Of a stretch of DNA of 51,302 nt, positions 21,427 to 34,991 are shown in pieces. The stretch covers positions 1 through 51,302 of the forward strand of contig CAMENN010000004.1 of NCBI GenBank assembly GCA_945928315.1, written 5' to 3'. The stretch comes from an uncultured Clostridia bacterium (GTDB taxonomy: Bacteria; Bacillota; Clostridia; Christensenellales; Aristaeellaceae). Position 1 is the first letter of the stretch. Each line of letters begins with the position of its first letter. The notes under the pieces are model-generated. The model was not told the DNA's origin. It did not search any database and saw only the letters and a list, made by a program, of their open reading frames with translations. Both the position numbers and the translations under genes were made by a program.

Positions 21427-21455
21427 TTGACAAGCCTGTAACGAAACGATAGAAT
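21427..21455 (+). promoter_or_regulatory. Promoter of the ABC importer operon
   Basis: TTGACA (21427-21432), 17 bases, TAGAAT (21450-21455). Confidence 0.7.
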
Positions 21456-21660
21456 AATATTGTCTTCGAGCCCCCCCTTCCTAAGGCTTTCGCGATGGAA
21501 TCGGGGCCATTGGGTTGCAGCGGAAACGGTGCAGCCTTCCTGTTTGAAAAGGAGACGGAATGCGCATGATCGTGGGAGGCCTGATGCCTCTCTGTTTGCT
21601 GCTGCCCGCATCCTTTTCAGGATGCGGTTTTTTATTGAGCACAGGAGAGGAGCAACCGCC
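21456..21660 (+). promoter_or_regulatory. Structured 5' leader of the ABC importer (riboswitch or attenuator candidate)
   Basis: The promoter is about 200 bases ahead of the first gene. The leader has hairpins GGTTGCA/TGCAGCC (about 21514-21539) and GGGAGGC/GCCTCTC (about 21573-21593), then an intrinsic terminator at 21606-21633. A small frame begins at 21560 with AAGGAG (MRMIVGGLMPLCLLLP, then ASFSGC, like a lipoprotein signal) and ends at 21691. No conserved cobalamin-box was found. Because molybdoenzymes lie next door, a molybdenum- or tungsten-cofactor riboswitch is a candidate, but I could not confirm the motif. Confidence 0.45.
21606..21633 (+). terminator. Intrinsic terminator (attenuator) before the importer genes
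   Basis: CCGCATCC, loop TTTTCA, GGATGCGG, then TTTTTT. It lies between the promoter and the first gene, so it must be bypassed conditionally. Confidence 0.85.
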
Positions 21661-22680
21661 TTGCGGAAAAAACGCCGTTCGTATTCCCTGATTCTCGCCC
21701 TTCTGGCGGCAGGCCTGCTGGTGCTGTTTCTGATCTCCTGCGGCATGGGACGCTATCCTGTGCCCCTTGATCAGATTGTGCGCATCCTCCTTCGCCGCAT
21801 GGGGATCGCCATGGAGACGACATGGACGGGCGCCATGGAGGCGACGGTGCTGCGCATCCGTCTGCCGCGGATCGTGCTGGCGTGCATGGTGGGCTGCTGT
21901 CTCTCCACGGCGGGCGCGGCGTATCAGGGCGTCTTTCAAAACCCGATGGCGTCGCCCGATCTGCTGGGCGCATCCTCCGGCGCGGCCTTTGGCGCGGCGC
22001 TGGCGATTCTGCTCGGCGCAAAGATGGGCATGGTGACGCTCAGCGCGTTCGCCTTCAGCCTGCTCACGGTGCTGCTGGTCATGCTCATCAGCGTGCGCGC
22101 ACCGGGCAAGCGGGTCATCTCCCTGATTCTGGGCGGCGTGATGGTCAGCTCCCTCTTTTCGGCGGGCACCTCCTACATCAAGCTGGTCGCCGATCCCAGC
22201 GATCAGCTGCCGGAGATCACCTACTGGCTGATGGGCAGCCTTTCCGGAACCGGCATGGCCAGCGTCCTCTTTGCCTGCGTGCCGATGACGCTGGGCCTTG
22301 TTCCGCTGCTGCTGCTGCGCTGGCGGCTGAACCTGCTGACGCTGGGCGACGACGAGGCCCGGGCGCTGGGCGTTCACGCCGGCGGGCTGCGGCTGACCGT
22401 CGTGCTCTGCTCCACGCTGGTCACTGCGGCGAGCGTCTCCGTCTCCGGCCTGATCGGCTGGATTGGTCTCGTCGTCCCGCACCTGGCGCGCAAGCTCGTG
22501 GGCAGCGATTACCGCGCGCTGCTGCCCTGCTCCATGCTGATGGGCGCGGGCTTCCTGCTGCTGGTGGACGATGTGAGCCGCAACCTGCTGCCCACGGAGA
22601 TCCCCATCGGCATCCTGACCGCCTTCATCGGTGCGCCGTTCTTCCTCTATCTGATCACACGCAAGGAGGCGGCGGAATGA
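21661..22680 (+). CDS. FecCD-family ABC importer permease
   Basis: 339 residues with about ten membrane helices; BtuC/FecCD family of metal-chelate importers. Typical segments are LRLPRIVLACMVGCCLSTAG, NPMASPDLLGASSGAAFGAA, GLIGWIGLVVPHLARKLVGS and the C-terminal ITAFIGAPFF-like end. The start is taken as TTG 21661, because AGGAGAGGAG lies 8 bases upstream. An ATG at 21622 lies in the terminator hairpin and has no ribosome site. It overlaps the ATPase gene by four bases (ATGA). The substrate could be molybdate/tungstate (MolB-like), an iron chelate, heme or cobalamin; context favours the first. Confidence 0.92.
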   Translation: MRKKRRSYSLILALLAAGLLVLFLISCGMGRYPVPLDQIVRILLRRMGIAMETTWTGAMEATVLRIRLPRIVLACMVGCCLSTAGAAYQGVFQNPMASPDLLGASSGAAFGAALAILLGAKMGMVTLSAFAFSLLTVLLVMLISVRAPGKRVISLILGGVMVSSLFSAGTSYIKLVADPSDQLPEITYWLMGSLSGTGMASVLFACVPMTLGLVPLLLLRWRLNLLTLGDDEARALGVHAGGLRLTVVLCSTLVTAASVSVSGLIGWIGLVVPHLARKLVGSDYRALLPCSMLMGAGFLLLVDDVSRNLLPTEIPIGILTAFIGAPFFLYLITRKEAAE

Positions 22681-23450
22681 TCGAGGTACGCGAGCTGTCG
22701 TTTGCCTATGGGCAGTCGCCCGTGCTCTCCGGCCTCTCCTTCACCATCGGGGAGGGCGGGCTGACGGCGCTGCTGGGCTGCAACGGTGCAGGCAAGACGA
22801 CGCTTTTCCGCTGCATGCTGGGGCTTCTGCCCGGATACACCGGCAGCCTCCGGATCAACGGGCGGGAGATCCGGCGCTGCTCCGTGCGCGAGCTGGCGCG
22901 GCAGATCACATGGATTCCGCAGAGCCAGAGCCCGACGTTCAACTATTCGGCGCTCGACATGGTGCTCATGGGCACGACCGGGCAAACGGGGCTGTTCTCC
23001 TCGCCGGGGGTCAGGCAGCGCAGGACGGCGATGGAAAAGCTGGAGCAGCTGGGCATTGCCCATCTGGCCGGGCGCGGCTTTCTGCACCTGAGCGGCGGCG
23101 AGCGCCAGCTGGTGCTCATCGCCCGCGCGCTCGCGCAGCAGGCGCCCATTCTGCTGATGGACGAGCCCTGCGCGAGCCTCGACTTCGGCAACCAGAGCCG
23201 CGTGATGGAGCAGGCCAGGCAACTTGCCCACAGCGGATACACGGTCATCATGTCCACGCATCATCCGCAGCATGTGCTCAGCTATGCAGACCGGGTGATC
23301 GCGCTTTCCGACGGAAGGCTGCTCACAGGCGGAACGCCCGGCGAGGTGATGAACGAAGCGCTCATGCGGACGCTTTACGGCATCGACACCACGTTTGTGG
23401 ACAGCCCGATGGGGCGGATTGTGCTGCCCGGCAGGGCGCAGACGGACTGA
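22677..23450 (+). CDS. ABC importer ATP-binding protein (FecE/BtuD/MolC type)
   Basis: 257 residues. Walker A is GCNGAGKTT near residue 34, the signature is LSGGERQLV, Walker B is ILLMDEPCASLD, and the switch His is in MSTHHPQH. The Q-loop reads WIPQSQSP. It forms the importer with the FecCD permease encoded just before (ATGA overlap) and the binding protein encoded 69 bases after. Confidence 0.95.
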   Translation: MIEVRELSFAYGQSPVLSGLSFTIGEGGLTALLGCNGAGKTTLFRCMLGLLPGYTGSLRINGREIRRCSVRELARQITWIPQSQSPTFNYSALDMVLMGTTGQTGLFSSPGVRQRRTAMEKLEQLGIAHLAGRGFLHLSGGERQLVLIARALAQQAPILLMDEPCASLDFGNQSRVMEQARQLAHSGYTVIMSTHHPQHVLSYADRVIALSDGRLLTGGTPGEVMNEALMRTLYGIDTTFVDSPMGRIVLPGRAQTD

Positions 23451-23519
23451 CCGGGTGAATGCTCAGATCCTGCTGCACGCGTGCAGTTGATCCACATTGG
23501 AAGAAAAGGAGTGTCTCTC

Positions 23520-24557
23520 ATGAAAAAAACGCTGACCGTCCTCCTGACGCTTTTCCTGCTTGCAGCATGCGTATGCGCAGCTGCGGCGGAGGGCACGCAC
23601 ACCTTCATCGATTCCACCGGCCGCGAGGTCGAGGTCCCCGCGAGCATTGAGCGCATCGCGCTCTCCGGCCCCATGGCGCAGATCGTGCTTTTCCCGCTGG
23701 CTCCGGACATGTTCGTGGGCATTGCGAATCCGTGGGACAGCAGCGCCGGGCAGTACCTGCCGACGGAATACTGCAGCCTGCCCGTCCTGGGCCAGCTCTA
23801 CGGCGGCAAGGGCGAGCTGAATCTCGAGGAGCTGCTCGCCGCCGATCCTCAGGTGGTCATCGATGTGGGTGAGCCGAAGAGCAGCATCGCCCAGGACATG
23901 GACGCACTGACGGAGCAGACCGGCATCCCGTTCGTGCACATCACCGCGACGCTCGCGACATTTGACGAGGCCTACACAAGGCTCGGCGAGCTGCTCGGTC
24001 GCGAGGCGGAGGCGGCCGTGCTGGCAGATTACTGCAGGAGCGTGTACGACCGCGCGGTCGACATCGCCGGGCGCGTTGACAAGGTGGATCTGCTTTACAT
24101 CACCGGCACGGAGGGGCTGAACGTCATTGCGAAGGACAGCTATCACAGTGAGGTCATCGATCTGCTGAGCAACAATCTGGCGGTGGTCGAATCCCCGTCC
24201 TCCAAGGGCACCGGCAACGAGGTGGACATGGAGCAGCTGCTCAAGTGGAACCCGGAGTACATCATCTTCGCGCCGGGCAGCGTATACGGCACCGTGGCGG
24301 AGGATGCGACGTGGCAGAACATGCAGGCAGTCGCCTCCGGCAGCTACTGCGAGGTGCCGATGGGGCCCTACAACTGGATGGGCTTCCCGCCCTCTGCGCA
24401 GCGTCTGCTGGGTCTTTTGTGGATGCCGAAGGTGCTCTATCCCGAGGCAGCGGACTACGACCTGTACGCCGAGGTGGCGCAGTATTATCAGCTGTTCTAT
24501 CACTGCGAGCTGACGCAGGAGCAGTTTGACGCGCTCGTGGCCCATTCCAATCTTTGA
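23520..24557 (+). CDS. ABC importer substrate-binding protein (FecB/BtuF/MolA-like)
   Basis: 345 residues. The N-terminal signal MKKTLTVLLTLFLLAACVCA contains LAAC, so it may be a lipoprotein, or be cleaved at a later AxA. The mature part has the periplasmic-binding-protein-II-like pattern of the BtuF/FhuD class: TFIDSTGREVEVPASIERIA, then LEELLAADPQVVID and LLKWNPEYIIFAPGS. The ligand cannot be read from the sequence; the neighbouring molybdopterin proteins make molybdate or tungstate plausible. AAAAGGAG precedes ATG 23520. Confidence 0.9.
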   Translation: MKKTLTVLLTLFLLAACVCAAAAEGTHTFIDSTGREVEVPASIERIALSGPMAQIVLFPLAPDMFVGIANPWDSSAGQYLPTEYCSLPVLGQLYGGKGELNLEELLAADPQVVIDVGEPKSSIAQDMDALTEQTGIPFVHITATLATFDEAYTRLGELLGREAEAAVLADYCRSVYDRAVDIAGRVDKVDLLYITGTEGLNVIAKDSYHSEVIDLLSNNLAVVESPSSKGTGNEVDMEQLLKWNPEYIIFAPGSVYGTVAEDATWQNMQAVASGSYCEVPMGPYNWMGFPPSAQRLLGLLWMPKVLYPEAADYDLYAEVAQYYQLFYHCELTQEQFDALVAHSNL

Positions 24558-24662: not shown

Positions 24663-25646
24663 TCAGATGACATTGAACACCACGTTCGCCGCCATCGGAG
24701 ACACGTTGCCGCTCTGCGTTCTGGCGCGCACGGTCAGCTGATAGGTGCCGGCAGCCTCCGGCGTATAGCTGAAGTGCCAGTAGACCCACTTGTCCGCCGT
24801 CGCGTTGGCGGTTTCGTAGGTGGTCCAGGTTTCGCCGCCGTCCAGGCTGAACTCAATCGCCGCGATGGCATCGCCGCAGTCATCGGAGTAGCCCTCAAAG
24901 GTGATGGTTTCGTTCACCGCAAATTCGCGTCCCTGAACCGTGTTCATGACGGCGACCTCGGCGCGGTAGGCGTCCTCGCGCGCATCGACCGCAGGAACCT
25001 CGGCTTCGGCAGTCAGCTCAATCTCCATCACGTTGCGCGTGAAGTACTTGGCGACGGTCTCCGGTACCCAGAACTGGTTGCCGGAGGGAACGTCCTTGCC
25101 GCCAACCTGATAGACGAACATGGCGTCCTTGTCGAGCGCATAGCGCAGCGGGAGCTTGGCCGTGTAGCCGTCCGCACCCTTGACCGCAATGGTGTTGACG
25201 CGCTCATCGAGTTTGGCCAGCTCAAGGACGTCCTTGAGCAGCACGCCGGTGATCTTCGCATTGACGGTGGCCGCAGCCGTGGCGCAGGAGCACAGAAGCG
25301 TGCGCACCTGCGACACCTTCTCCTTGAGGTCCACGGTATAGGACTCGATGAAATCGCCGCCCACGTTCACCAGCGTGCTGCCCTCGCCCAGCGCGAAATC
25401 GGGCTTGGCGCACAGGCCGGTCACGACGGAGCCAAAGAGGCTGAACACCTCATCCGCGGGGGTGACCACGTCCTGATCGAAGGTGAACTCGCCCTTCACG
25501 CCCGCAACCTTGTCGTACTCGACGGCCTGAACCGCCTCGGCAGCCACGTCAAGATTCACTTCCTGCGCCACAACCTGTGCGGCGGCCGAGGTCAGCAGCG
25601 CCGCGGTGGAGGCGCCGGAGAGAATCCGTCTGGTCTTTTTGTTCAT
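24663..25646 (-). CDS. Secreted SUOX-fold molybdopterin oxidoreductase (no heme motifs)
   Basis: 327 residues. The N-terminal signal has a twin arginine (KKTRRILSGASTAALLTSAA) before AAAQVVAQ, so Tat export is possible but the motif is not perfect. Residues about 60-210 resemble the oxidoreductase molybdopterin-binding domain of the sulfite oxidase/YedY family: the candidate Mo-ligand Cys is 119 or 121 (LLCSCATAAATVNAKITGV), then LLKDVLELAKLDERV and WVPETVAKYFTRNVMEIEL. Residues about 245-327 form the Ig-like Mo-co dimerisation domain (DDCGDAIAAIEFSLDGGETW). The substrate is unknown. It lies 12 bases after the triheme paralogue. Confidence 0.8.
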   Translation of the reverse strand: MNKKTRRILSGASTAALLTSAAAQVVAQEVNLDVAAEAVQAVEYDKVAGVKGEFTFDQDVVTPADEVFSLFGSVVTGLCAKPDFALGEGSTLVNVGGDFIESYTVDLKEKVSQVRTLLCSCATAAATVNAKITGVLLKDVLELAKLDERVNTIAVKGADGYTAKLPLRYALDKDAMFVYQVGGKDVPSGNQFWVPETVAKYFTRNVMEIELTAEAEVPAVDAREDAYRAEVAVMNTVQGREFAVNETITFEGYSDDCGDAIAAIEFSLDGGETWTTYETANATADKWVYWHFSYTPEAAGTYQLTVRARTQSGNVSPMAANVVFNVI

Positions 25647-25658
25647 CCTGATCCCTCC

Positions 25659-27158
25659 TTACTGAACGTTGAACATGTAGCTCGTCAGCTCGTCGTTGAC
25701 GCGCAGGGTGCCGTCCGCCTTCTCGCTCGTCGCGCGGATGCGCATCAGGTAGGAGCCCGGCGCGGCGATGTTGTTGATGTCGAGCGTCCAGTAAACCCAG
25801 TGCGTGGTGTCATACTCGCCGATCTCAAACTCCTGCCAGGTCGCGCCGTGATCGAAGGTGTACTCGAGCTTGACGATGGGCTCGTTCCAGGCGTCGGCAA
25901 AGCCCTCGAGATGGATGGGCTGACCGGCCTCAAAGATCTGGCCGTCGGTGGCGTTGAGCACGGCAACGTTCGGCTTGTTGAACGGACGGCCGGTGGTCGC
26001 GTCCGTGAAGTCGCCGTAGAAGTCCCAGGAGGCGGAGTCGGTCTTCGCAAACCGCAGCTCGCAGACCTTCTTGGTGAAGTTGCCGGCGGTCATGTGGTTG
26101 CACCAGAAGGCAACCGGGAAGCCCTGATCGGCGTAGATGCGGTCACCGTTCAGGCCGACGACCAGCAGGCCGTCCTCCTGAACCAGCAGGTCGGTGTAGA
26201 TGTTGTAGCAGTAGCCGTCGTCACCGATCGGGTAGAACATGTTGGCGTCCTCGTGAACGCCCAGATCCTCCATGATCCTGGTGATCGGGATGCCGGTGAC
26301 CTCCGCCTGGTACACCATCGCCTGACCCGGGCCGTTGACGACGCAGTGGTACTTCATCGTGCGTGTCACGGTGCCGTACTTTTCGATGAGCTCGGGGAGG
26401 GTCATCTCGCACGGGTTGTCGATGTCGCCGGTGAACTTGATCGTCCACGTGTCAAACATTTCGTCCGTGACCTGCTCCTCGCTGGTCAGCCAGGTGCTCG
26501 GATCGGACTTGATGGACTTGAAGAACATCCGGCTGTGGTCGGTGATCTCGGTGTCGTTCCAGGAGAAGCTGGTTTCCACCGCGTCGGCAGCCAGATCGGT
26601 GAGGCCAAAGAGCACGTCGTACTTCACATAGTCCCAGCGCTGGAACTCGCCGTCGGCGGTGATGTAGTGGCAGGATTCGCAGCTGCCGCCCATCGCCGCA
26701 AAGGCGGAGGAGCGCTGGTGGATGGTGTGAATGCTGTCGCGCAGCTTCGTGGAGTAAAAGCCGTGACAGCCAAAGCAGTTCTGCAGCCCCTGCTCCGTCT
26801 CGTAGCCCATGTAGATGATGCCGTGATAGGTTTCCATCATCTCCAGCGCATCCTCGATGGTATGGCAGGCGGTGCAGCCGCGGTTGTCGGCGTTCAGGTA
26901 CAGATTGTTCCAGCTCTCCACCAGCTTGCCGTCGGCAGGCGTGGTGTTGAGGGGCGTCTTCTGAATCTGCACGCCGTTGTCGAGCGTCGTGACGCGCGGG
27001 GCATACTTGGCGTCCGCATCGTCGTTTTTCCCGTAGCTGGCCGTTTGAGGCAGCTTCGCCAGACGCTCAGGGTCCACCTCCGCCGCGGCGACAGCGGTCA
27101 TGAGGACCGCCACCAGCAGCGCGCAGCAGAGTGCGAGAACGCGGGTGGATTTGTTCAT
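25659..27158 (-). CDS. Triheme cytochrome c fused to SUOX-fold molybdopterin domain
   Basis: 499 residues, secreted (signal about 1-27, ending AVAAAEV). Three c-type heme motifs are seen: C95-TA-C98-H99, C128-FG-C131-H132 and C160-ES-C163-H164, with further His residues at 112, 144 and 147 as possible distal ligands. From about 235 a sulfite-oxidase-type molybdopterin domain follows, with candidate Mo ligand Cys272 in YHCVVNGPG and the segment AEVTGIPITRIMEDLGV. An Ig-like dimerisation domain (about 395-499; KLEYTFDHGATWQEFEIG) ends it. The layout suggests electrons pass between the Mo centre and outside partners through the hemes. Substrate and direction are unknown. ATG 27158 follows GAGGAGG. 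Confidence 0.85.
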   Translation of the reverse strand: MNKSTRVLALCCALLVAVLMTAVAAAEVDPERLAKLPQTASYGKNDDADAKYAPRVTTLDNGVQIQKTPLNTTPADGKLVESWNNLYLNADNRGCTACHTIEDALEMMETYHGIIYMGYETEQGLQNCFGCHGFYSTKLRDSIHTIHQRSSAFAAMGGSCESCHYITADGEFQRWDYVKYDVLFGLTDLAADAVETSFSWNDTEITDHSRMFFKSIKSDPSTWLTSEEQVTDEMFDTWTIKFTGDIDNPCEMTLPELIEKYGTVTRTMKYHCVVNGPGQAMVYQAEVTGIPITRIMEDLGVHEDANMFYPIGDDGYCYNIYTDLLVQEDGLLVVGLNGDRIYADQGFPVAFWCNHMTAGNFTKKVCELRFAKTDSASWDFYGDFTDATTGRPFNKPNVAVLNATDGQIFEAGQPIHLEGFADAWNEPIVKLEYTFDHGATWQEFEIGEYDTTHWVYWTLDINNIAAPGSYLMRIRATSEKADGTLRVNDELTSYMFNVQ

Positions 27159-27199
27159 CACTTCTACCTCCTCACAGACGAGTGATATTTTACAACAAA

Positions 27200-27228
27200 A
27201 TTATAGACCAAGTCGCGAAGCAGGTCAA
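27200..27228 (-). promoter_or_regulatory. Promoter of the molybdo-cytochrome operon
   Basis: Minus strand TTGACC (27228-27223), 17 bases, TATAAT (27205-27200). An 11-base palindrome ATTGTGACAAT lies upstream at 27243-27253, a possible regulator site. Confidence 0.75.
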
Positions 27229-27270
27229 TATTCCCTCCCAAAATTGTGACAATATGTGAAAAGCCGCGCT

Positions 27271-27294
27271 CCGGGGATGCGAAAGCGTCCCCGG
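27271..27294. repeat. GNRA-capped hairpin in the divergent region
   Basis: CCGGGGATGC, loop GAAA, GCGTCCCCGG: a ten-pair stem with one wobble. It lies between the two divergent promoters and is outside both predicted transcripts, so its role is unclear. Confidence 0.5.
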
Positions 27295-27338
27295 CTCCGG
27301 GGGCGGGCGGGCGGTCCCGCTTTTGTACGGCGTTTGCC

Positions 27339-27369
27339 TTGACTTTCCCCCTGGGGTATGCTTTATAAT
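27339..27369 (+). promoter_or_regulatory. Probable promoter of the NTPase-SecA-ResBC operon
   Basis: TTGACT (27339-27344), 19 bases, TATAAT (27364-27369). The wide spacer suggests the need for an activator. Confidence 0.5.
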
Positions 27370-27422
27370 AGTGGGCATGGGAAATGCCGCTTCGCACACG
27401 GGAGCGGACCGGTAGGCGTATC

Positions 27423-27962
27423 ATGCACACCTTGATCGTTGGGGAGCGCGGCGTGGGAAAGAGCACGCTGCTCGAGCGCGTGCTGCGGGAAATCGGACGG
27501 CCGGTATTCGGCTTCGAAACCAAAAAGGAGGACGCGCTGCGCGACGAGCGTCTGGGCAGCCCGGTCTATATCTATGAGCCGGGCGCGCCGCGCACGCAGA
27601 GCGAAACGAATCTCGTGGGCTATTGCAGGAACCAGTGTCCCTCCTCCCGCAGGGAAGGCTTTGACCGGTATGCCGGGAAGCTGCAAAACGTGCCGCCGGG
27701 CTGCATCGTCAAGCTGGACGAGATCGGCTTCATGGAGGCAGCGTCGCCGGCCTTCTGCGCGGCCATCATGCGTCTGCTCGACGGCGATACGCCCGTGATT
27801 GCCGCGGTGAAGTTCAACGCCTCGCCGTTTCTTGACGCGGTCAGAAGCCACCCGAACTGCCGCCGGTTTGACATCACGCCGGAAAACCGCGATGCGCTCT
27901 ATGACGAGGTGCTCGCCTTTGTGCGCAGCCAGCTCGCGCAGATCCCGGGCGGCAGAGGATGA
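27423..27962 (+). CDS. THEP1-like nucleoside-triphosphatase
   Basis: 179 residues. Walker A is VGERGVGKST at 6-15, and a Walker B-like CIVKLDEIGFME lies near residue 98. The family (COG1618/NTPase_1, THEP1) hydrolyses NTPs, with no settled role. The first gene of a six-gene rightward operon, it lies 41 bases before the SecA-like gene. ATG 27423 was chosen from the Walker A context; the ribosome site (GGTAGG) is weak. Confidence 0.8.
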   Translation: MHTLIVGERGVGKSTLLERVLREIGRPVFGFETKKEDALRDERLGSPVYIYEPGAPRTQSETNLVGYCRNQCPSSRREGFDRYAGKLQNVPPGCIVKLDEIGFMEAASPAFCAAIMRLLDGDTPVIAAVKFNASPFLDAVRSHPNCRRFDITPENRDALYDEVLAFVRSQLAQIPGGRG

Positions 27963-28003
27963 CCGGCACAAAACCGGCAAAAAAGAAGTGAACCGGAAAA
28001 AGC

Positions 28004-30109
28004 ATGATGATTTCCATTTCGGCCAAACGCGAGCTGCGCAAAGTCCATGCGCTGGCCGGCGCGCTTGCGGCGGAAACCGACGCGCAGCTTTTGCAGCAGA
28101 TGCAGCTGCTTCGCGGCAGGGATGACCTGCAGGGCGTCCGCCCGCGCGTGTATGCGCTTGTGTATGAGGCCTTCCGGCGTGCGATGGGCATCACGCCCTA
28201 CGACGAGCAGCTTCTCGGTGCCATCGCAATGGCACAGGGCTGCATCATTCAGATGAATACCGGCGAGGGAAAGACCGTGACGGCCGTGTTCCCGGCCTGC
28301 CTGTATGCGCTCAGCGGGCGCGGCGCGCACATCGCGACGGTCAACCCCTATCTCGCCCGGCGCGACTGCGAGTGGATGCGCCCGGTGTATGCGCTGCTGG
28401 GGATTTCCGTGGCGGTGACCGAGGCGGGGATGTCCGCCGAAGAGAAGCAGGCTGCGTATGCCTGCGATGTGACCTACGGCACCCATAGCGAGTTCGGCTT
28501 TGACTACCTGCGCGATCAGCTGGCCCAAAGCGAGCAGGCGCAGGTGCAGCGCGCCCCTGCGTTCATGCTGGTCGATGAGGCGGACAGCATTCTGCTGGAC
28601 GAGGCGGTCACGCCGATGATCCTCTCGGGCGGCGGCGGCAGCCTGAATCCGCTGCTGCCGGTGGTGGATCGCTTTGTGGGCTACTTAAGGCCCGTAACCG
28701 TGCAGTCGCTCGAGGAGGACGACGAATACGAGCGGCTCGACGGACAGTACGATTACATCGTGCTGCAGAAGGAGCGCGTCGCGATCCTCACCTCGCTGGG
28801 GCAAAGGCATGCCGAGCAGTTTTTCCGGCTGAAGAGCCTTGACGATGACCTGAGCATCGCGCACATGATCTTTCAGGCGATTCAGGCGCACGGCACGCTC
28901 AAGCGCGATGTGGACTATATCGTGACGGACGGAAAGCTGCAGATTGTGGACCCGCATACGGGCCGCGTGCTCGACGGGCGCCGCTACTGCGACGGGCTGT
29001 GGCAGGCGCTTCAGGTCAAGGAAAAGCTCGAGGTGGTCAGGGAGAGCGTCACCGTCGCCTCGATCTCCTATCAGCAGTATTTCCTGCGGTATCCGCTGCT
29101 GTGCGGCATGACCGGCACGGCCCGGGAGGGGCGCGCGGAGTTCGGCAGGGTGTATCAGGTGCCGGTGCGCGTGATTGCGCCGCACCGGCGCAGCATCCGG
29201 CGCGACCTGCCGGACAGCTTTGCGCCGGACAGGGAAACGCAGGTTTCACAGATCGTTTCCGAGGTGCGGCAGGCGCAGGGGCGCGGGCAGCCCTGCCTGA
29301 TCGTCACGAGGACCGTGGAGGACAACGACGTCCTCGCCGGGGCGCTGCGCAGGATGGGCATCGCCTGCGAGGTGCTCTCCGCGCGCAGCAGCGAGCGCGA
29401 GGCGGAGATCATCGCGCGGGCGGGGCAGACGGGGCGCGTAACCGTGGCGACAGCGCTGGCCGGACGCGGAACGGATATCCGCCTCAGCGACGAGGCGCGC
29501 GCGGCCGGCGGGCTGTATGTCCTCGGCTTTGGCCACCAGAACACCCGCCGCGGCGACAGGCAGCTCATGGGCCGCAGCGGCCGTCAGGGCGATCCGGGCA
29601 TGACGCGCTTCTTTGTCTCGCCCGGGGACGAGCTGCTGGTGCGCTTCCTCGAGCAGGACGAAAAGACAAAGAAGCGGCCCATGACGCAGAAGGCGTGCCT
29701 GCGGGCCGTCAAAAGCGCGCAGCGGCAGTGCGAGGGCGCAGCCTGCGCGCAGCGCGAGACGACCCTCAAGCTGGACGAGGTGATCGGCCGGTTCCGCAGC
29801 GAGATCTACGGGGCGCGGGAGCGGGTGCTGCGCGGGGAGCTGCCGCAGGCATACGCGCATCTGCCGCAAAGAATGGTGCAGGCGGTCGCGCTGCATACGA
29901 TCGACGAGGCGTGGGCAGCGTTCCTTCGCGAGGCGGACGAGGCGCGCCAGCGCTGCGGCGTCGTGTCGCTGGTGGGCAGGGATTACCGGAGCGAGTACAT
30001 TCGCGAGGTTGCCTCCATGTTCAATGTGATGGTGGAGGGCATGCAGGAGCAGATGCGCCTGCGGCTTGAAAAGGTGAAGGGGGACACGCTGTATGTGGAC
30101 GGTGTATGA
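28004..30109 (+). CDS. Short SecA paralogue (SecA2-like preprotein translocase ATPase)
   Basis: 701 residues, shorter than housekeeping SecA (about 800-900). Motifs are Walker A MNTGEGKT (84-91), DEAD box VDEADSILLDEA (190-201; usual SecA has VDEVDSILIDEA), CGMTGTAREGRAEF, AGRGTDIRL and GRSGRQGDPGMTRFF. The preprotein-crosslinking and helical-scaffold regions are abbreviated, and the C-terminal zinc-binding tail is absent. SecA2-type proteins export a subset of proteins, sometimes ones that fold early. The place between the NTPase and the ResB/CcsA genes suggests a client in this cluster, probably the molybdo-cytochrome. The next gene overlaps by 17 bases. Confidence 0.9.
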   Translation: MMISISAKRELRKVHALAGALAAETDAQLLQQMQLLRGRDDLQGVRPRVYALVYEAFRRAMGITPYDEQLLGAIAMAQGCIIQMNTGEGKTVTAVFPACLYALSGRGAHIATVNPYLARRDCEWMRPVYALLGISVAVTEAGMSAEEKQAAYACDVTYGTHSEFGFDYLRDQLAQSEQAQVQRAPAFMLVDEADSILLDEAVTPMILSGGGGSLNPLLPVVDRFVGYLRPVTVQSLEEDDEYERLDGQYDYIVLQKERVAILTSLGQRHAEQFFRLKSLDDDLSIAHMIFQAIQAHGTLKRDVDYIVTDGKLQIVDPHTGRVLDGRRYCDGLWQALQVKEKLEVVRESVTVASISYQQYFLRYPLLCGMTGTAREGRAEFGRVYQVPVRVIAPHRRSIRRDLPDSFAPDRETQVSQIVSEVRQAQGRGQPCLIVTRTVEDNDVLAGALRRMGIACEVLSARSSEREAEIIARAGQTGRVTVATALAGRGTDIRLSDEARAAGGLYVLGFGHQNTRRGDRQLMGRSGRQGDPGMTRFFVSPGDELLVRFLEQDEKTKKRPMTQKACLRAVKSAQRQCEGAACAQRETTLKLDEVIGRFRSEIYGARERVLRGELPQAYAHLPQRMVQAVALHTIDEAWAAFLREADEARQRCGVVSLVGRDYRSEYIREVASMFNVMVEGMQEQMRLRLEKVKGDTLYVDGV

Positions 30110-30824
30110 CCGCCTGATTGCATGCACCCGGGGGCACGACGCCGTGGACAGCGTCATGCAGGGGGAGAACTGGACGATGGTCAGGACGCGCAGCGGGCGC
30201 ACCGGCGTTGCGGCGACGAACCCCGCGCGCTCGGGCAGGCCCGTCGATCCGGCGCGGTTTGCGGGCATGCCGCTGGAGGAAGCGGCGCAGCTGGTCAAGT
30301 CGTGGGATTTTGAGGTGGCGAGCGTCGGTCTGGCGGCGATCAACGCGGTGGTCAACGCGCCAAAGCTGCACCCCGTCTGCGAGAATCCGGACGCCTTCCT
30401 GCGCTATCGCGACCGGGCAGCCGGCAAAAAGGTGGCGGTCATCGGCCGGTTCGCCTATCTGGAGAGCAGGCTCAAGGGCCTGTGCGATCTGTATGTGCTC
30501 GAGCGCAGGCCGGGCCCGGAGGATTATCCCGATCCGGCGTGCGAGTACCTGCTGCCGGACATGGACGTGGTGTTCATCACCGGCTGCGCCGTGGGCAACA
30601 AGACGATGCCCAGGCTGCTGCAGCTGTGCCAAAGGCCGTTCACGGTGATCTCCGGCCCATCCACGCCGATGCACCCGGTGTTCTTTGAGCTGGGCGCGGA
30701 TGCGCTGTGCGGCCTGTGCATCACGGATGAGCAGGCGTGCCGCGCGGCAGCGTCGGACTGCGCGGGCATTTTTGCGGCCGGGCGGATGGTCTGCCTGGAG
30801 AAACACGAGGTGATGAAGCTGTGA
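30093..30824 (+). CDS. DUF4213/DUF364 protein (putative heavy-metal chelation)
   Basis: 243 residues. The N-terminal DUF4213 part is about 1-90 (VQMGENWTMV-like region, then LVKSWDFEVASVGLAAINAV). The DUF364 part is about 110-235: KVAVIGRFAYLESRLKGLCD, ERRPGPEDYPDPACEYLLPD and TVISGPSTPMHPVFFELGAD. This family has an enolase-like plus Rossmann-like fold and is described as a putative metal-chelating protein. Several cysteines (Cys at CGLC and others) could bind metal. It overlaps both neighbours in the operon. Confidence 0.85.
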   Translation: MWTVYDRLIACTRGHDAVDSVMQGENWTMVRTRSGRTGVAATNPARSGRPVDPARFAGMPLEEAAQLVKSWDFEVASVGLAAINAVVNAPKLHPVCENPDAFLRYRDRAAGKKVAVIGRFAYLESRLKGLCDLYVLERRPGPEDYPDPACEYLLPDMDVVFITGCAVGNKTMPRLLQLCQRPFTVISGPSTPMHPVFFELGADALCGLCITDEQACRAAASDCAGIFAAGRMVCLEKHEVMKL

Positions 30825-32038
30825 AAAAGGTGCTTTCCTTTTTGCGCTCCATGCGCTTTGGCATGGTGCTGCTGGCGCTGATTGCGGTGCTGTCCGTGTT
30901 CGGCACGCTGATTGCGCAGGGGCAGAGCGCGGCGTATTACGCGCATGCCTGTCCGGGCTGGGACGGGGTCATTCTGGCGCTGGGCCTTGACCATGTGTAT
31001 TCCACCTGGTATTATGTCGCGCTGTTCGCCGCGCTGTGCCTGAACCTGCTGCTGTGCTCCGTGCTGCGCGCGGGCAGGCTCCGCACCGCCCGGGCGGGCC
31101 TGATCGCGCGCGCGCAGAAGGCCGGGCCCGTGGCAGGGCTTGAAGCTGACCAGGCGGCTGCGGCCCTCAAACGGCTCGGCTTCCGCGAACAGGACGGCGT
31201 GTACACCCGACGGATGCTGGGCGTGTTCGGCCCGCTGGTGACCCACACCGGCCTGCTTCTGCTGATGATCGCGGCGGCGTGCGCGTTCAGCCTTGCGCAG
31301 AAGCAGGACGCCTGGCTGATGGTTGGCGACAGCCTGACGCTTGCGGACAGTGCAAAAATCCGCGTGGAGAGCTTCTCGATGGAGGATGCCTCCGGCAGGC
31401 TGGAATACACCTCCGTGCTGGAGCTGACCGGCGCAGACGGCACGAGCCGGACGGCGACGATTCAGGTGAACCATCCGGCACGCCTTGGCGCGCATACGGT
31501 CTACCAGCAGAGCTATGCGTTTGCGGGCGTGCTGGACGTGCAGACGGCGCCGGATGCCCCGGCGGAGCAGGTGGTGCTGGACAGCCCGGCCTTCATCTCG
31601 CTCGACGGCGCAAACGGCATTCAGTACCAGCAGGTGTACGGCGACTATACCGTGACGGAGGACGGACAGATCATGCCGGTGAACACCGCCGGCGGCGCGA
31701 TGGTTCATCCGGTCTATCTGACGGCGGTCATCGCCGACGGGGAGCAGCGGCTCGGCGCGGTGCTGCCGGATGAGACGTTCGAGGTCGGCGGCGTGTACTA
31801 CACGTTCCGCGAGCCGGCAGCCTATCCGGGGCTGCGGATCAAGACGCAGCCGGGCTGGGTGCTTCCGCTGCTATATGCGTCCTTCGTGGTGCTGATTACG
31901 GGGCTTTACCTGTGCTTCTTCCACGTGCCGGCGGCCGTCTGCGTCACGCAGGACGGGGTGCGCATCGCGAGCGGCAAGGATACCCAGGGGCTCGCCGAGA
32001 GCCTCATGGACGCCATCCATGATATGGCGGAGCAATGA
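30821..32038 (+). CDS. resB: ResB-like cytochrome c biogenesis protein
   Basis: 405 residues. An N-terminal group of membrane helices (SMRFGMVLLALIAVLSVFGT, then YYVALFAALCLNLLLCSVLR and LVTHTGLLLLMIAAACAFSL) precedes a large external domain (about 155-340). A final helix (LPLLYASFVVLITGLYLCFF) follows. With CcsA it forms the system II synthase that carries heme across the membrane and attaches it to CxxCH motifs. The start is GTG 30821, overlapping the previous stop by four bases. The obvious clients are the three heme motifs encoded across the divergent promoter. Confidence 0.9.
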   Translation: MKKVLSFLRSMRFGMVLLALIAVLSVFGTLIAQGQSAAYYAHACPGWDGVILALGLDHVYSTWYYVALFAALCLNLLLCSVLRAGRLRTARAGLIARAQKAGPVAGLEADQAAAALKRLGFREQDGVYTRRMLGVFGPLVTHTGLLLLMIAAACAFSLAQKQDAWLMVGDSLTLADSAKIRVESFSMEDASGRLEYTSVLELTGADGTSRTATIQVNHPARLGAHTVYQQSYAFAGVLDVQTAPDAPAEQVVLDSPAFISLDGANGIQYQQVYGDYTVTEDGQIMPVNTAGGAMVHPVYLTAVIADGEQRLGAVLPDETFEVGGVYYTFREPAAYPGLRIKTQPGWVLPLLYASFVVLITGLYLCFFHVPAAVCVTQDGVRIASGKDTQGLAESLMDAIHDMAEQ

Positions 32039-32847
32039 CTGAACAAGGGGGCTTCATGATGCTGAACGTGCTTTTCTACATTCCGATTGCGCTGTATTTC
32101 GTGGCGATGCTTCTGGAATTCATGGGCGCGGCGTTCAAAAGGGCTTCGCTCCGGCGGGCGGCGTGGTTCATCCTGCTGGGCGCGATCGGCGTTCACACCG
32201 CCTACACCGTCCTGCGCGGCATCCGGGCGGGCCGCATTCCGATGGCCAACCAGTTTGAGTTTGCGAATGCGTTCGCGCTGGGCGTGGCGGTGATCGGCGC
32301 GCTGTTCAAGCTGCGCAACCGGAGCATGGACTGGATGGTCACGCTCTGCACGCCGTGCGCGTTTGTGCTGATCTCCTACGCGGCGTTTCAGCCGCAGGAG
32401 ATCACGGAGCTGATGCCCGCGCTGCGCAGCGTGTGGTTTACCGCGCACATCGGCACGGCCGTGCTCTCCTACGCGGCCTTCGCGGTTGCGGCCTGCTGCG
32501 GGCTTCGTTACCTGCTTCTGGAGAAGAAGGAGACGGATGCCCACCTGCGGCAGCTGGACAATCTCTCCTACAAGCTGGTGTGCTTTGGCTACCTGATGCT
32601 CACCGTGGTCATTCTGACCGGCTGCGTCTGGGCGGAGCAAGCCTGGTCCTCCTTCTGGACATGGGACCCCAAGGAGGTGTGGGCGCTGATCACGTGGATT
32701 CTCTACTCCATCTATCTGCATCAGCGCATCCGCATGAACTGGCGCGGGCGGAGAATGGCGTTCTTCTCCATTCTGGCGTTTGTGTTCGTGATCTTCACCT
32801 TCGTGGGGGTCAACACCCTGATGAGCGGGCTGCACAGCTATGCCTGA
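32035..32847 (+). CDS. ccsA: CcsA/ResC heme-handling cytochrome c synthase subunit
   Basis: 270 residues, about eight membrane helices. The tryptophan-rich heme-handling WWD motif is VWAEQAWSSFWTWDPKEVW at 199-217. Candidate heme-ligand His residues flank it (His54, His138 in TAHIGTAVLSYAAF, and one near the end in SGLHSYA). It overlaps resB by four bases (ATGA), as expected for a ResB-ResC pair. A thiol reductant (CcdA/ResA) is not in the window. Confidence 0.95.
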   Translation: MTEQGGFMMLNVLFYIPIALYFVAMLLEFMGAAFKRASLRRAAWFILLGAIGVHTAYTVLRGIRAGRIPMANQFEFANAFALGVAVIGALFKLRNRSMDWMVTLCTPCAFVLISYAAFQPQEITELMPALRSVWFTAHIGTAVLSYAAFAVAACCGLRYLLLEKKETDAHLRQLDNLSYKLVCFGYLMLTVVILTGCVWAEQAWSSFWTWDPKEVWALITWILYSIYLHQRIRMNWRGRRMAFFSILAFVFVIFTFVGVNTLMSGLHSYA

Positions 32848-33463
32848 GAAGATCATCTATCTGATCCGCCATGCGGAGCCGGAATACCCGGCGGGAGAAA
32901 GAATCTGTCTGGGCTGTCACGTCGACGTCCCGCTGAGCAGGCAGGGAAGACGGCAGGCCGAACAGCTGCGGGACGCGTTTTCGGATATTGCGCTGGAGGC
33001 CGCCTTTACCAGCCCCCTGCTGCGGGCGAGGGAAACGGCGCAGGTCCTCGGCCGCGGCGTGCTCCCGGTTGAGGTGGTGCCAGCTCTCCGGGAGCTCGAT
33101 GGCGGCGTTTGGGACGGGCTCCCCTTCAGCGAAATCTACGCGCGTTGGCCGGAGCATTTTCACGGAAGCTGCCGGAGCGAGCCCCCGCCCGGCGGGGAGA
33201 GCGATCAGGCGGGCTGGGCGCGCGGACTGGACGCCCTCTGCGGGATTGCCGGCCGGATTGACCGGTGCGCGGCGGTTGTCGCGCATTCCGGGCTGAACCG
33301 GCTGCTGCTGTGCGGGCTGATGGGCCAGCCGCTGCAGCTCAAAAAGCGGGTCCCGCAGAGCTATGCCTGCGTGAGCATTCTGGATTGGCAGGACGGGCAT
33401 TTCACGGTTCGGGAGGCAGGCATTCCGCTGGAGGTCTGGGCGCAGAGAGCCGCCCGGACATGA
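32840..33463 (+). CDS. Histidine phosphatase superfamily protein
   Basis: 207 residues. The catalytic RHAEPEY at 10-16, ETAQVL, a second-acid segment LRELDGGVWDGLPFSE and the second His in VAHSGLNRLLL identify the branch-1 histidine phosphatases (phosphoglycerate mutase-like, CobC-like). The substrate is unknown. It overlaps ccsA by 8 bases as the last gene of the operon. It may dephosphorylate a cofactor precursor, but this is only a guess from context. Confidence 0.88.
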   Translation: MPEKIIYLIRHAEPEYPAGERICLGCHVDVPLSRQGRRQAEQLRDAFSDIALEAAFTSPLLRARETAQVLGRGVLPVEVVPALRELDGGVWDGLPFSEIYARWPEHFHGSCRSEPPPGGESDQAGWARGLDALCGIAGRIDRCAAVVAHSGLNRLLLCGLMGQPLQLKKRVPQSYACVSILDWQDGHFTVREAGIPLEVWAQRAART

Positions 33464-33628: not shown

Positions 33629-34021
33629 TTATTCCACCGTAAAGACGACGCTGGAGGCCAGCGGGGAGACCCTGCCGTCGGCCGTCCGCGCGCGGACGGC
33701 GAGCTTGAAGGTGCCCGGCTGTTCGGCGGTGAAGCCGAAGTACCAGTAGACCCACATCTTGCTGGTCACATCGTCCGTCGCGCAGCTCGTCCAGGTCTCG
33801 CCGTTGTCCATGGAGAACTCCACAGCGGCAATGGCCTGACCAATATCGTCGGCATAGCCCTCAAAGGTGATCTGATCGCCGACGGAGAAGACATGTCCCT
33901 CCGCCATGCGGTTCATCAGGCTGACCTTCGTGCGGTATTCCTCCTGCCCGGCCTCGATCTCGGGCACCTCCGCCTCGGCGCTCAGCTCGATTTCCGCCAC
34001 CTGACGGGTGATTTTGTCCAT
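33629..34021 (-). pseudogene. Remnant of a third SUOX-type oxidoreductase (C-terminal domain only)
   Basis: 130 residues. It matches the last 130 residues of the oxidoreductase at 24663: AEIELSAEAEVPEIEAGQEE, DIGQAIAAVEFSMDNGETW and KMWVYWYFGFTAEQPGTFKL. The signal peptide and molybdopterin domain are missing. Its first codons overlap the start of the MerR gene on the opposite strand by 14 bases, which marks a deletion or inversion joint at about 34008-34025. There is no convincing ribosome site, so expression is unlikely. Confidence 0.8.
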
Positions 34022-34991
34022 CGGCCAGATGGCCAGGCTGCATGGCGTATCGGAAAAAACGCTGCGCCTGTATCACCGGCTCGGCATTCTGGTGCCATGC
34101 CGGATTCAGGAGGACACCGGTTATCGCTACTACGACATGAACCAGTCCCCGCAGCTCGATCTGATTCAGGAGCTCAAGAGCATCGGGCTGTCCCTGGGCC
34201 AGATCCGCAGTGTTCTTCACAATCCGGACATCGGCGCCTTCCGGAATGTCGTCAGCGACCAGAAACGCAGGCTGTTGCAGCAGCAGAGGGAGCTTTCGCT
34301 CTGCATCTACAATGCCGAAAGCCTGCTGCGCAACATCGACGTGTTCATGAACAAGCCCCTGCTGGGCCGCTTTGCACTGGAGCATATCCCCGCGCGGCGC
34401 GCGCTCATCTTTCCGTATCCCGCCCCGCAGCCGGAGGGCTGCACGGCAGAGGAGGTGCTCTCGTTCTGGGAGGGCTGTCTGCGCCACTTCCACTGCGAGA
34501 TGCAGCGCCGGGGCATTCCCCTCACGCTCTTTCACAACGTCGGCTGCAGCGTGCCCAAAGCGAATGTGCTGGCGCGCAACATGCGCAACGAATGCGGCTT
34601 CGTCTTTGTGGACGACTGCTTTCACGAGGCGCCGACCGTCACGTTCCCGGAGGCCGACTACATGACCTACATCTGCGACGGCATGATCGGCGCGGACGGC
34701 ATCTATCTGGAGGAGAAGTACTACTACCTGCTGATTGATGAAATCGGGCGTCAGGGCTACGAGATCATCGGCGACTACTATGGAGAGGTGATCGCGGAAA
34801 CCGCCGCCTTCCAATACGAGGGGCGGGACATGATGGTCAGGCTCCAGATTCCCGTGCGGAAGAATCCCGGGCAGGCGCAGGACCGGTCGCCGGCAGCGCC
34901 CTCCCGGCACTCTCCCGTGGTCCCGGATGACATGAATACGCGCCGGGGCCATACAGATCTGCCGGATTGCGTCGAGCCAAACGCGCGGTGA
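34008..34991 (+). CDS. MerR-family regulator with effector-binding domain
   Basis: 327 residues. The N-terminal MerR winged helix is ILSIGQMARLHGVSEKTLRL, followed by a dimerisation coil (KSIGLSLGQI to about 110). Residues about 130-285 look like a GyrI-type effector-binding domain (RRALIFPYPAPQ and TYICDGMIGADGIYLEEKYY). The 40-residue Pro/Arg-rich tail may be an extension through a lost stop. The start is GTG 34008 at the joint with the oxidoreductase remnant, with no good ribosome site, so the native 5' end was probably lost and expression is in doubt. Confidence 0.75.
   Translation: MILSIGQMARLHGVSEKTLRLYHRLGILVPCRIQEDTGYRYYDMNQSPQLDLIQELKSIGLSLGQIRSVLHNPDIGAFRNVVSDQKRRLLQQQRELSLCIYNAESLLRNIDVFMNKPLLGRFALEHIPARRALIFPYPAPQPEGCTAEEVLSFWEGCLRHFHCEMQRRGIPLTLFHNVGCSVPKANVLARNMRNECGFVFVDDCFHEAPTVTFPEADYMTYICDGMIGADGIYLEEKYYYLLIDEIGRQGYEIIGDYYGEVIAETAAFQYEGRDMMVRLQIPVRKNPGQAQDRSPAAPSRHSPVVPDDMNTRRGHTDLPDCVEPNAR

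Follow-up and report, generated by a model that had tools for sequence, protein, structure and literature searches.

A probable export and heme-maturation module for a secreted triheme SUOX-type protein in an uncultured Clostridia bacterium

The DNA analyzed here, called the window, is the whole 51,302-nucleotide stretch of contig CAMENN010000004.1 (assembly GCA_945928315.1) from an uncultured Clostridia bacterium of the Aristaeellaceae. It contains a divergent locus in which a secreted triheme c-type cytochrome fused to a SUOX-type molybdopterin domain (cytSUOX) and a secreted single-domain SUOX-fold protein (SUOXb) are encoded leftward, and a THEP1-type NTPase, a short SecA paralogue (SecAx), a DUF4213/DUF364 protein, ResB, CcsA, and a histidine phosphatase are encoded rightward. 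We propose, with a probability of roughly 0.6, that this locus is a dedicated export and heme-maturation module for one extracytoplasmic triheme SUOX-type oxidoreductase. The proposal of a dedicated line is made because SecAx is genetically tied to cytSUOX and because the ResB/CcsA pair of the locus is an extra one in its genome. A search of the open-access literature found no paper describing this gene set.

On the minus strand, cytSUOX occupies 25659..27161 and SUOXb 24663..25646. The plus-strand genes are the NTPase at 27423..27962 (NTPase_1, PF03266, E 7e-23), SecAx at 28004..30109, the DUF4213/DUF364 protein at 30093..30824 (PF04016, E 5.5e-31; PF13938, E 9.3e-18), a family with putative heavy-metal chelation and proposed pterin chemistry, ResB/Ccs1 of System II cytochrome c biogenesis at 30821..32038 (PF05140, E 8e-37, obtained on the longer frame from 30737), the heme-handling protein CcsA/CcsB at 32035..32847 (TIGR03144, 228.8 bits, cut-off 187.6; motif WAEQAWSSFWTWDPKE from 32629), and the histidine phosphatase at 32840..33463 (PF00300, His_Phos_1, E 3.4e-45). 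Two starts were corrected: ResB probably begins at 30821 rather than 30737, and the NTPase at 27423 rather than 27384. An earlier interpretation made without database searches (the sequence-only reading) had named these genes and families, and the searches returned the same ones at the same places: Oxidored_molyb twice, NTPase_1, SecA, DUF4213 with DUF364, ResB, Cytochrom_C_asm/CcsB, and His_Phos_1. The overlap that it described from the SecA gene onward is present at four junctions, namely SecAx/DUF364 at 30093-30109, DUF364/ResB as GTGA at 30821, ResB/CcsA as ATGA at 32035, and CcsA/phosphatase at 32840-32847.

The relatives of cytSUOX were sought with six exact peptide patterns in the genome_contigs collection, which by its description holds one genome per species for 84,980 species. 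Nine stretches matched, and four loci in three metagenome-assembled genomes (MAGs) encode relatives with 59-66% identity. They are found in a ‘Blautia sp.’ bin (L055), in an Oscillospiraceae bin from roe deer (L056 and L057), and in a ‘Clostridia bacterium’ bin (L058, genome G062). In L056 and L057, seven module genes lie on a single strand in the order cytSUOX, ResB, SUOXb, SecAx, DUF364, phosphatase, and CcsA; L055, also on a single strand, has cytSUOX, ResB, SUOXb, and SecAx, and then the contig ends. SecAx therefore directly follows SUOXb in all three. L056 and L057 belong to one MAG and share 99.7% identity across 8.5 kb, the result of either a recent duplication or mixed strains, so they were counted once. 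In G062, cytSUOX is near the end of a separate 21.5 kb contig, and SecAx, which scores 903 bits with a profile built without the G062 sequence, is on a 144 kb contig (L089), followed by DUF364, ResB, CcsA, and the phosphatase in the order of the window. Because the two genes are on different contigs there, their co-occurrence in G062 does not depend on one operon. The contig with cytSUOX also encodes, at 285-3239 of L058, a molybdenum hydroxylase of the xanthine dehydrogenase/aldehyde oxidase type with [2Fe-2S] and 4Fe-4S domains. Overall, the module families recur, from four in L055, which is cut by the contig end, up to seven, in three arrangements and with 41-66% protein identity. With three further genomes sharing much of the gene set, the grouping is more than chance.

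SecAx is present in all four genomes that have cytSUOX, with module members scoring 837-1461 bits. No cytSUOX turned up in 59 relatives, 28 of which share the genus, or in 397 genomes of the phylum, 390 of the class, and 199 of the family of module genome G061. Likewise, no SecAx-like match was seen in the 59 relatives (the single window protein gave at best 407 bits, compared with 1552 for itself), no SecAx-level score in the 397 phylum genomes (best other 599 bits), and no SecAx in 102 genomes of the family of G062 (threshold 1e-185). These genome samples may overlap, and many of the genomes are MAGs. SecA homologues regularly occurring without the triheme-SUOX gene would, by the sequence-only reading, have spoken against a link; in these genomes, SecAx was seen only together with cytSUOX. 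Among viral contigs, 208 pattern matches included no relative of cytSUOX, and 18 plasmid records matched, of which the 15 listed are SUOX-type matches with 22-27% identity. The module is rare and patchily distributed.

SecAx has the Walker A motif GEGKT at residue 87, and its Pfam SecA domains pass their cut-offs. It is, however, below the cut-off of all eight NCBIfam SecA/SecA2 models that it matched. Its scores against SecA2-type models are 540.5 bits for TIGR04397 (cut-off 1085), 501.4 for TIGR03714 (930), 466 for TIGR04221 (725), and 435.4 for NF012136 (1100), and the SecA model PRK12904 gives 610.7 bits with a cut-off of 814. Alignment with E. coli SecA, using domain bounds that we take to be correct for that protein, shows that SecAx keeps NBD1, the preprotein domain, most of NBD2, and the helical scaffold. 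Of the helical wing (83 positions), each of the three full-length copies retains just 11, and of the C-terminal linker (69 positions) 8-14; SecAx has neither the C-terminal linker/zinc tail nor the NBD2 insert. In the same alignment, the second SecA of genome G256 has no tail yet keeps 78 of the 83 wing positions; loss of the tail and loss of the wing are therefore separate. In a tree with 43 SecA1 rows, the four SecAx sequences form one clade (100/100); the rows of this tree are SecAx and SecA1 sequences only, all longer than 500 residues apart from SecAx of L055 (382 residues), and long branches and a compositional warning apply to it. Each of the four cytSUOX genomes has, besides SecAx, a second match of the SecA1 type, which in the window genome (G000) is a contig-end fragment only.

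The three CxxCH motifs of cytSUOX start at residues 96, 129, and 161, and three further histidines are at 113, 145, and 148; all of these are invariant in the four aligned copies. This number of histidines is what three bis-His hemes require, and such ligation may be expected from the sequence. The C-terminal part of cytSUOX aligns with SUOX-family enzymes, and Oxidored_molyb (PF00174) is above its cut-off of 24 bits in both cytSUOX (63.4 bits, E 2.5e-17) and SUOXb (39.5 bits, E 5.6e-10), so the secreted triheme-SUOX fusion recognized in the sequence-only reading is sound. With SUOXb as a family profile, the best matches are structures of the sulfite dehydrogenase SorA (E 4.3e-9). A dimerization-domain match was seen in SUOXb and in a remnant of a second SUOXb copy, and the C-terminal domain of cytSUOX was aligned. 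In an alignment of seven module and seven reference SUOX proteins, made after the four cytSUOX and one reference had been trimmed of their N-terminal part, the cysteine that we take to be the Mo-coordinating ligand of the family is kept in all 14, E. coli MsrP being among the references. It is Cys273 in cytSUOX, and Cys119/Cys121 are at this position in SUOXb. A twin-arginine signal is usual for exported members of the SUOX family, and covalent heme attachment requires unfolded (Sec) export. None of the four cytSUOX signal peptides has a twin arginine, which is consistent with export by Sec.

Is the ResB/CcsA pair specific for this cytochrome? At the level of the families it is not, and for these in general the observation that the sequence-only reading named as refuting it was made: a CcsA match, weak in one case (G056, 8.7e-11), was obtained in 12 of the 59 relatives, all 12 without cytSUOX. 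An NrfA homologue adjoins ResB/CcsA in all 10 loci examined, which are those of nine of these relatives and the second pair of the window genome; the three of these NrfA proteins that were searched with Pfam all match Cytochrom_C552. The second pair of the window genome is a separate NrfA-ResB-CcsA locus with a Crp-type regulator (8553-12643 of L045, contig C52), and the ResB/CcsA of the window is thus an additional copy. That the ResB/CcsA of the genome serve all of its cytochromes is disfavored because NrfA has its own pair. In a ResB tree of four module and nine NrfA-linked rows, built without the L045 row, the module ResBs group as a single clade (95/94). DsbD_TM and thioredoxin-like genes on contig C8 of the window genome make thiol reduction of the CcdA/ResA type available.

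Next to the module, on the plus strand, is an ABC importer. It is preceded by a riboswitch for the molybdenum/tungsten cofactor (Moco) at 21452..21570 (Rfam RF01055, 61 bits, gathering 36, E 2.7e-12) and consists of a FecCD-type permease at 21622..22680 (PF01032, E 3.8e-89; ATG at 21622), probably of a molybdate/tungstate or other metal importer, an ATP-binding protein at 22677..23450, recognized without a family search from the motifs GCNGAGKT and LSGGERQ in its open reading frame, and a solute receptor of the periplasmic-binding-protein type at 23520..24557 (Peripla_BP_2, PF01497, E 3e-16; likely start ATG 23520). The sequence-only reading had placed a metal importer within the module; the DUF4213/DUF364 protein is not a transporter, and the importer is outside, at 21622-24557. 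None of the other module loci read has the riboswitch at gathering-threshold level, and it was rejected as a constant companion. The window genome has the Moco genes MoaC, MoaA, MOSC/MoCF, MoeA, and MobB. One of its TatC genes adjoins MoaC, MoaA, MOSC/MoCF, and molybdate-type ABC genes, and MoeA, MobB, and a second THEP1-type NTPase are upstream. This second NTPase (2520-3053 of L107, and L093, contig C3) is 25% identical to that of the module. The module NTPase was rejected as a core part, as no counterpart was detected in L055-L058 or L089.

DUF364 was found in three of the four module genomes; in L055 the contig ends before its expected place. The genome context of the family includes molybdate and tungstate transport, and flavin or pterin chemistry has been proposed for it (PMC2954201). 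The histidine phosphatase is closest to the CobC alpha-ribazole phosphatase, although it is below the TIGR03162 cut-off (112 bits, cut-off 162.9). The cysteine ligand, the Moco riboswitch, and the Moco synthesis genes of the genome make molybdenum in cytSUOX and SUOXb likely but unproven.

The mechanism we propose is as follows. cytSUOX and SUOXb would be exported across the membrane by way of the ordinary SecYEG channel, with SecAx as a dedicated motor that feeds them into it, cytSUOX most likely in an unfolded state. On the outer side, the module ResB/CcsA would bring heme across and attach it to the three CxxCH motifs to give three bis-His hemes. The SUOX domain or domains would load a molybdopterin-type cofactor. 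The DUF4213/DUF364 protein and the histidine phosphatase, together with the THEP1-type NTPase in the window, may help on the metal/pterin side, and in the window genome the cofactor would be supplied by the riboswitch-controlled importer and the Moco synthesis genes. The finished triheme enzyme would then link the cell to a small extracellular substrate by electron transfer. The dedicated assembly line for a molybdo-cytochrome in the sequence-only reading is supported in part, by the specificity of SecAx and the extra ResB/CcsA pair; the support for molybdenum is indirect, and a conserved arginine of the SUOX family is missing.

This arginine belongs to the P-x-R motif and presumably makes contact with the phosphate of the pterin. 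All seven references have it, and none of the seven module SUOX proteins does, window SUOXb lacking it by a gap. Thus, Moco binding may differ or be lost, and the molybdenum binding of the sequence-only reading is left with the ligand cysteine, the riboswitch, and the Moco genes in its favor and this loss against it. If molybdopterin binding has been lost from the SUOX domains, the two secreted proteins would be a multiheme electron shuttle or scaffold that uses the SUOX fold, and the module would serve only cytochrome export and heme attachment. The cytSUOX signal peptides, whose lack of a twin arginine in four of four is unusual for cofactor-loaded Mo enzymes, and the riboswitch, below gathering or absent in the other module loci read, would fit such a loss. 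We nevertheless consider it unlikely, given that the Mo-ligand cysteine is retained in all seven proteins and the PF00174 match of cytSUOX is above its cut-off, that DUF364, a family whose genome context includes molybdate and tungstate transport (PMC2954201), is in three of the four module genomes, and that an importer under a Moco riboswitch adjoins the window module. In a bolder variant of the proposed mechanism, SecAx would export cytSUOX unfolded, and molybdopterin, modified and possibly dephosphorylated with the help of DUF364 and the CobC-like phosphatase, would be handed to it on the outer side of the membrane. A cofactor without phosphate would explain the loss of the phosphate-holding arginine. 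Molybdopterin enzymes are normally loaded inside the cell and then exported folded by the twin-arginine (Tat) route, and we regard this variant as quite improbable.

SecAx may also be a general accessory SecA that came with the cassette, the SUOX proteins being exported by SecA1 or Tat. Tat export is available in the window genome, which has two TatC genes, one of them next to Moco genes, and the signal peptide of window SUOXb contains TRRILSG. It is the only one of three SUOXb signal peptides with a twin arginine at the starts used, those of L055 and L057 having none, although an alternative upstream start would bring one into L055 SUOXb. Against a general role, SecAx was seen only alongside cytSUOX in the genomes searched, and it is directly after SUOXb in L055-L057. 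Furthermore, the twin arginine is absent from every cytSUOX, and TatC, of which G061 has one, was not found in the other two module genomes, G060 and G062 (both MAGs). For these reasons, we consider a general role unlikely. SecY was found once each in G061 and G062 and not in G000 or G060, which we read as probable gaps in the MAG assemblies. A mobile or assembly-shuffled region in which the genes are mere neighbors, with no joint function, is very improbable. It could draw on the relatives being MAGs, on the gene order, which differs between the window and L056, and on possible strain mixing behind the 99.7% identity of L056 and L057 in one assembly. It would have to account for four to seven families recurring in three arrangements at 41-66% identity and for the overlapping junctions from SecAx to the phosphatase, four of four in the window and three of four in L089.

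Several other observations weigh against a dedicated module, as do the missing arginine, the available Tat route, the SUOXb twin arginine, and the SecY gaps. The six search patterns come from one protein, and the scan reaches close relatives only. The co-occurrence of SecAx and cytSUOX is partly by ascertainment, because it concerns only four genomes, and the three others are MAGs found via cytSUOX. In G062 it hinges on correct binning, and no SUOXb was encountered in the parts of G062 that were read. The module GC of 0.61-0.67 is like that of the window (0.62), so composition shows no sign of recent acquisition. Finally, the module CcsAs are not a clade in a tree of three module and 10 other rows (2 changes; 4% of bootstrap trees have such a clade), and one history shared by all module genes is therefore not supported.

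A sigma-70-like site lies before cytSUOX on the minus strand at 27200..27228; it is a consensus match only, with 11 of 12 matches, and one such site was found compared with a mean of 0.1 in shuffles. Beyond the phosphatase, the C-terminal remnant of a second SUOXb copy, recognized by protein identity to SUOXb C-termini, is at 33629..34021 on the minus strand. It is 62.6% identical to SUOXb of L055 and 61.0% to that of L057, compared with 55.6% to the C-terminus of the intact window SUOXb. Its start is overlapped by the gene of a MerR-family regulator at 34008..34991 on the plus strand (PF13411, E 9.1e-15). A role as a defense system was rejected, as a PADLOC search with four module proteins gave no match at E 1e-5.

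Like the accessory SecA2 proteins of C. difficile, mycobacteria, Listeria, and streptococci, SecAx is a second SecA paralogue beside SecA1 and has no C-terminal tail. According to PMC7503281, the wing, which contacts SecY, is shorter in mycobacterial SecA2, and C. difficile SecA2 has no C-terminal tail and keeps the wing; on that account, SecAx resembles the mycobacterial protein in its reduced wing and differs from that of C. difficile. Unlike in the SecA2 systems, its partner is a multiheme SUOX protein with System II rather than surface glycoproteins or virulence factors. The DUF364 protein Dhaf4260 belongs to the same family as the module protein and has molybdate, tungstate, and MerR in its genome context, as given in PMC2954201, whereas the module gene overlaps those of SecAx and ResB. 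The NrfA-linked pair of System II (Ccs) shares with the module the ResB and CcsB families, the tryptophan-rich motif, and a cytochrome beside the pair; in the module, however, that cytochrome is the triheme-SUOX fusion, and the operon holding the pair also encodes SecA and DUF364. SorAB, SoxCD, and MsrPQ have the same SUOX fold with a Mo-ligand cysteine. cytSUOX differs from them in its three N-terminally fused hemes, the missing P-x-R arginine, and the lack of a twin arginine, and no match of the MsrQ or SorB type was found among ten neighboring proteins searched.

The clients known for accessory SecA proteins are mainly surface and virulence proteins. A SecA paralogue genetically tied to a redox enzyme and a heme-attachment pair would widen the known roles of SecA paralogues. 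The module is a compact, testable case of the export and maturation of a protein that needs covalent heme and, probably, a molybdopterin-type cofactor. If the cofactor were indeed delivered outside the membrane, this would mean that a molybdenum cofactor is loaded extracytoplasmically, and it would solve, together with SecAx, the conflict between hemes, which need unfolded export, and molybdopterin enzymes, which go folded. In anaerobes, the module draws attention to an extracellular redox enzyme that is as yet unexplored.

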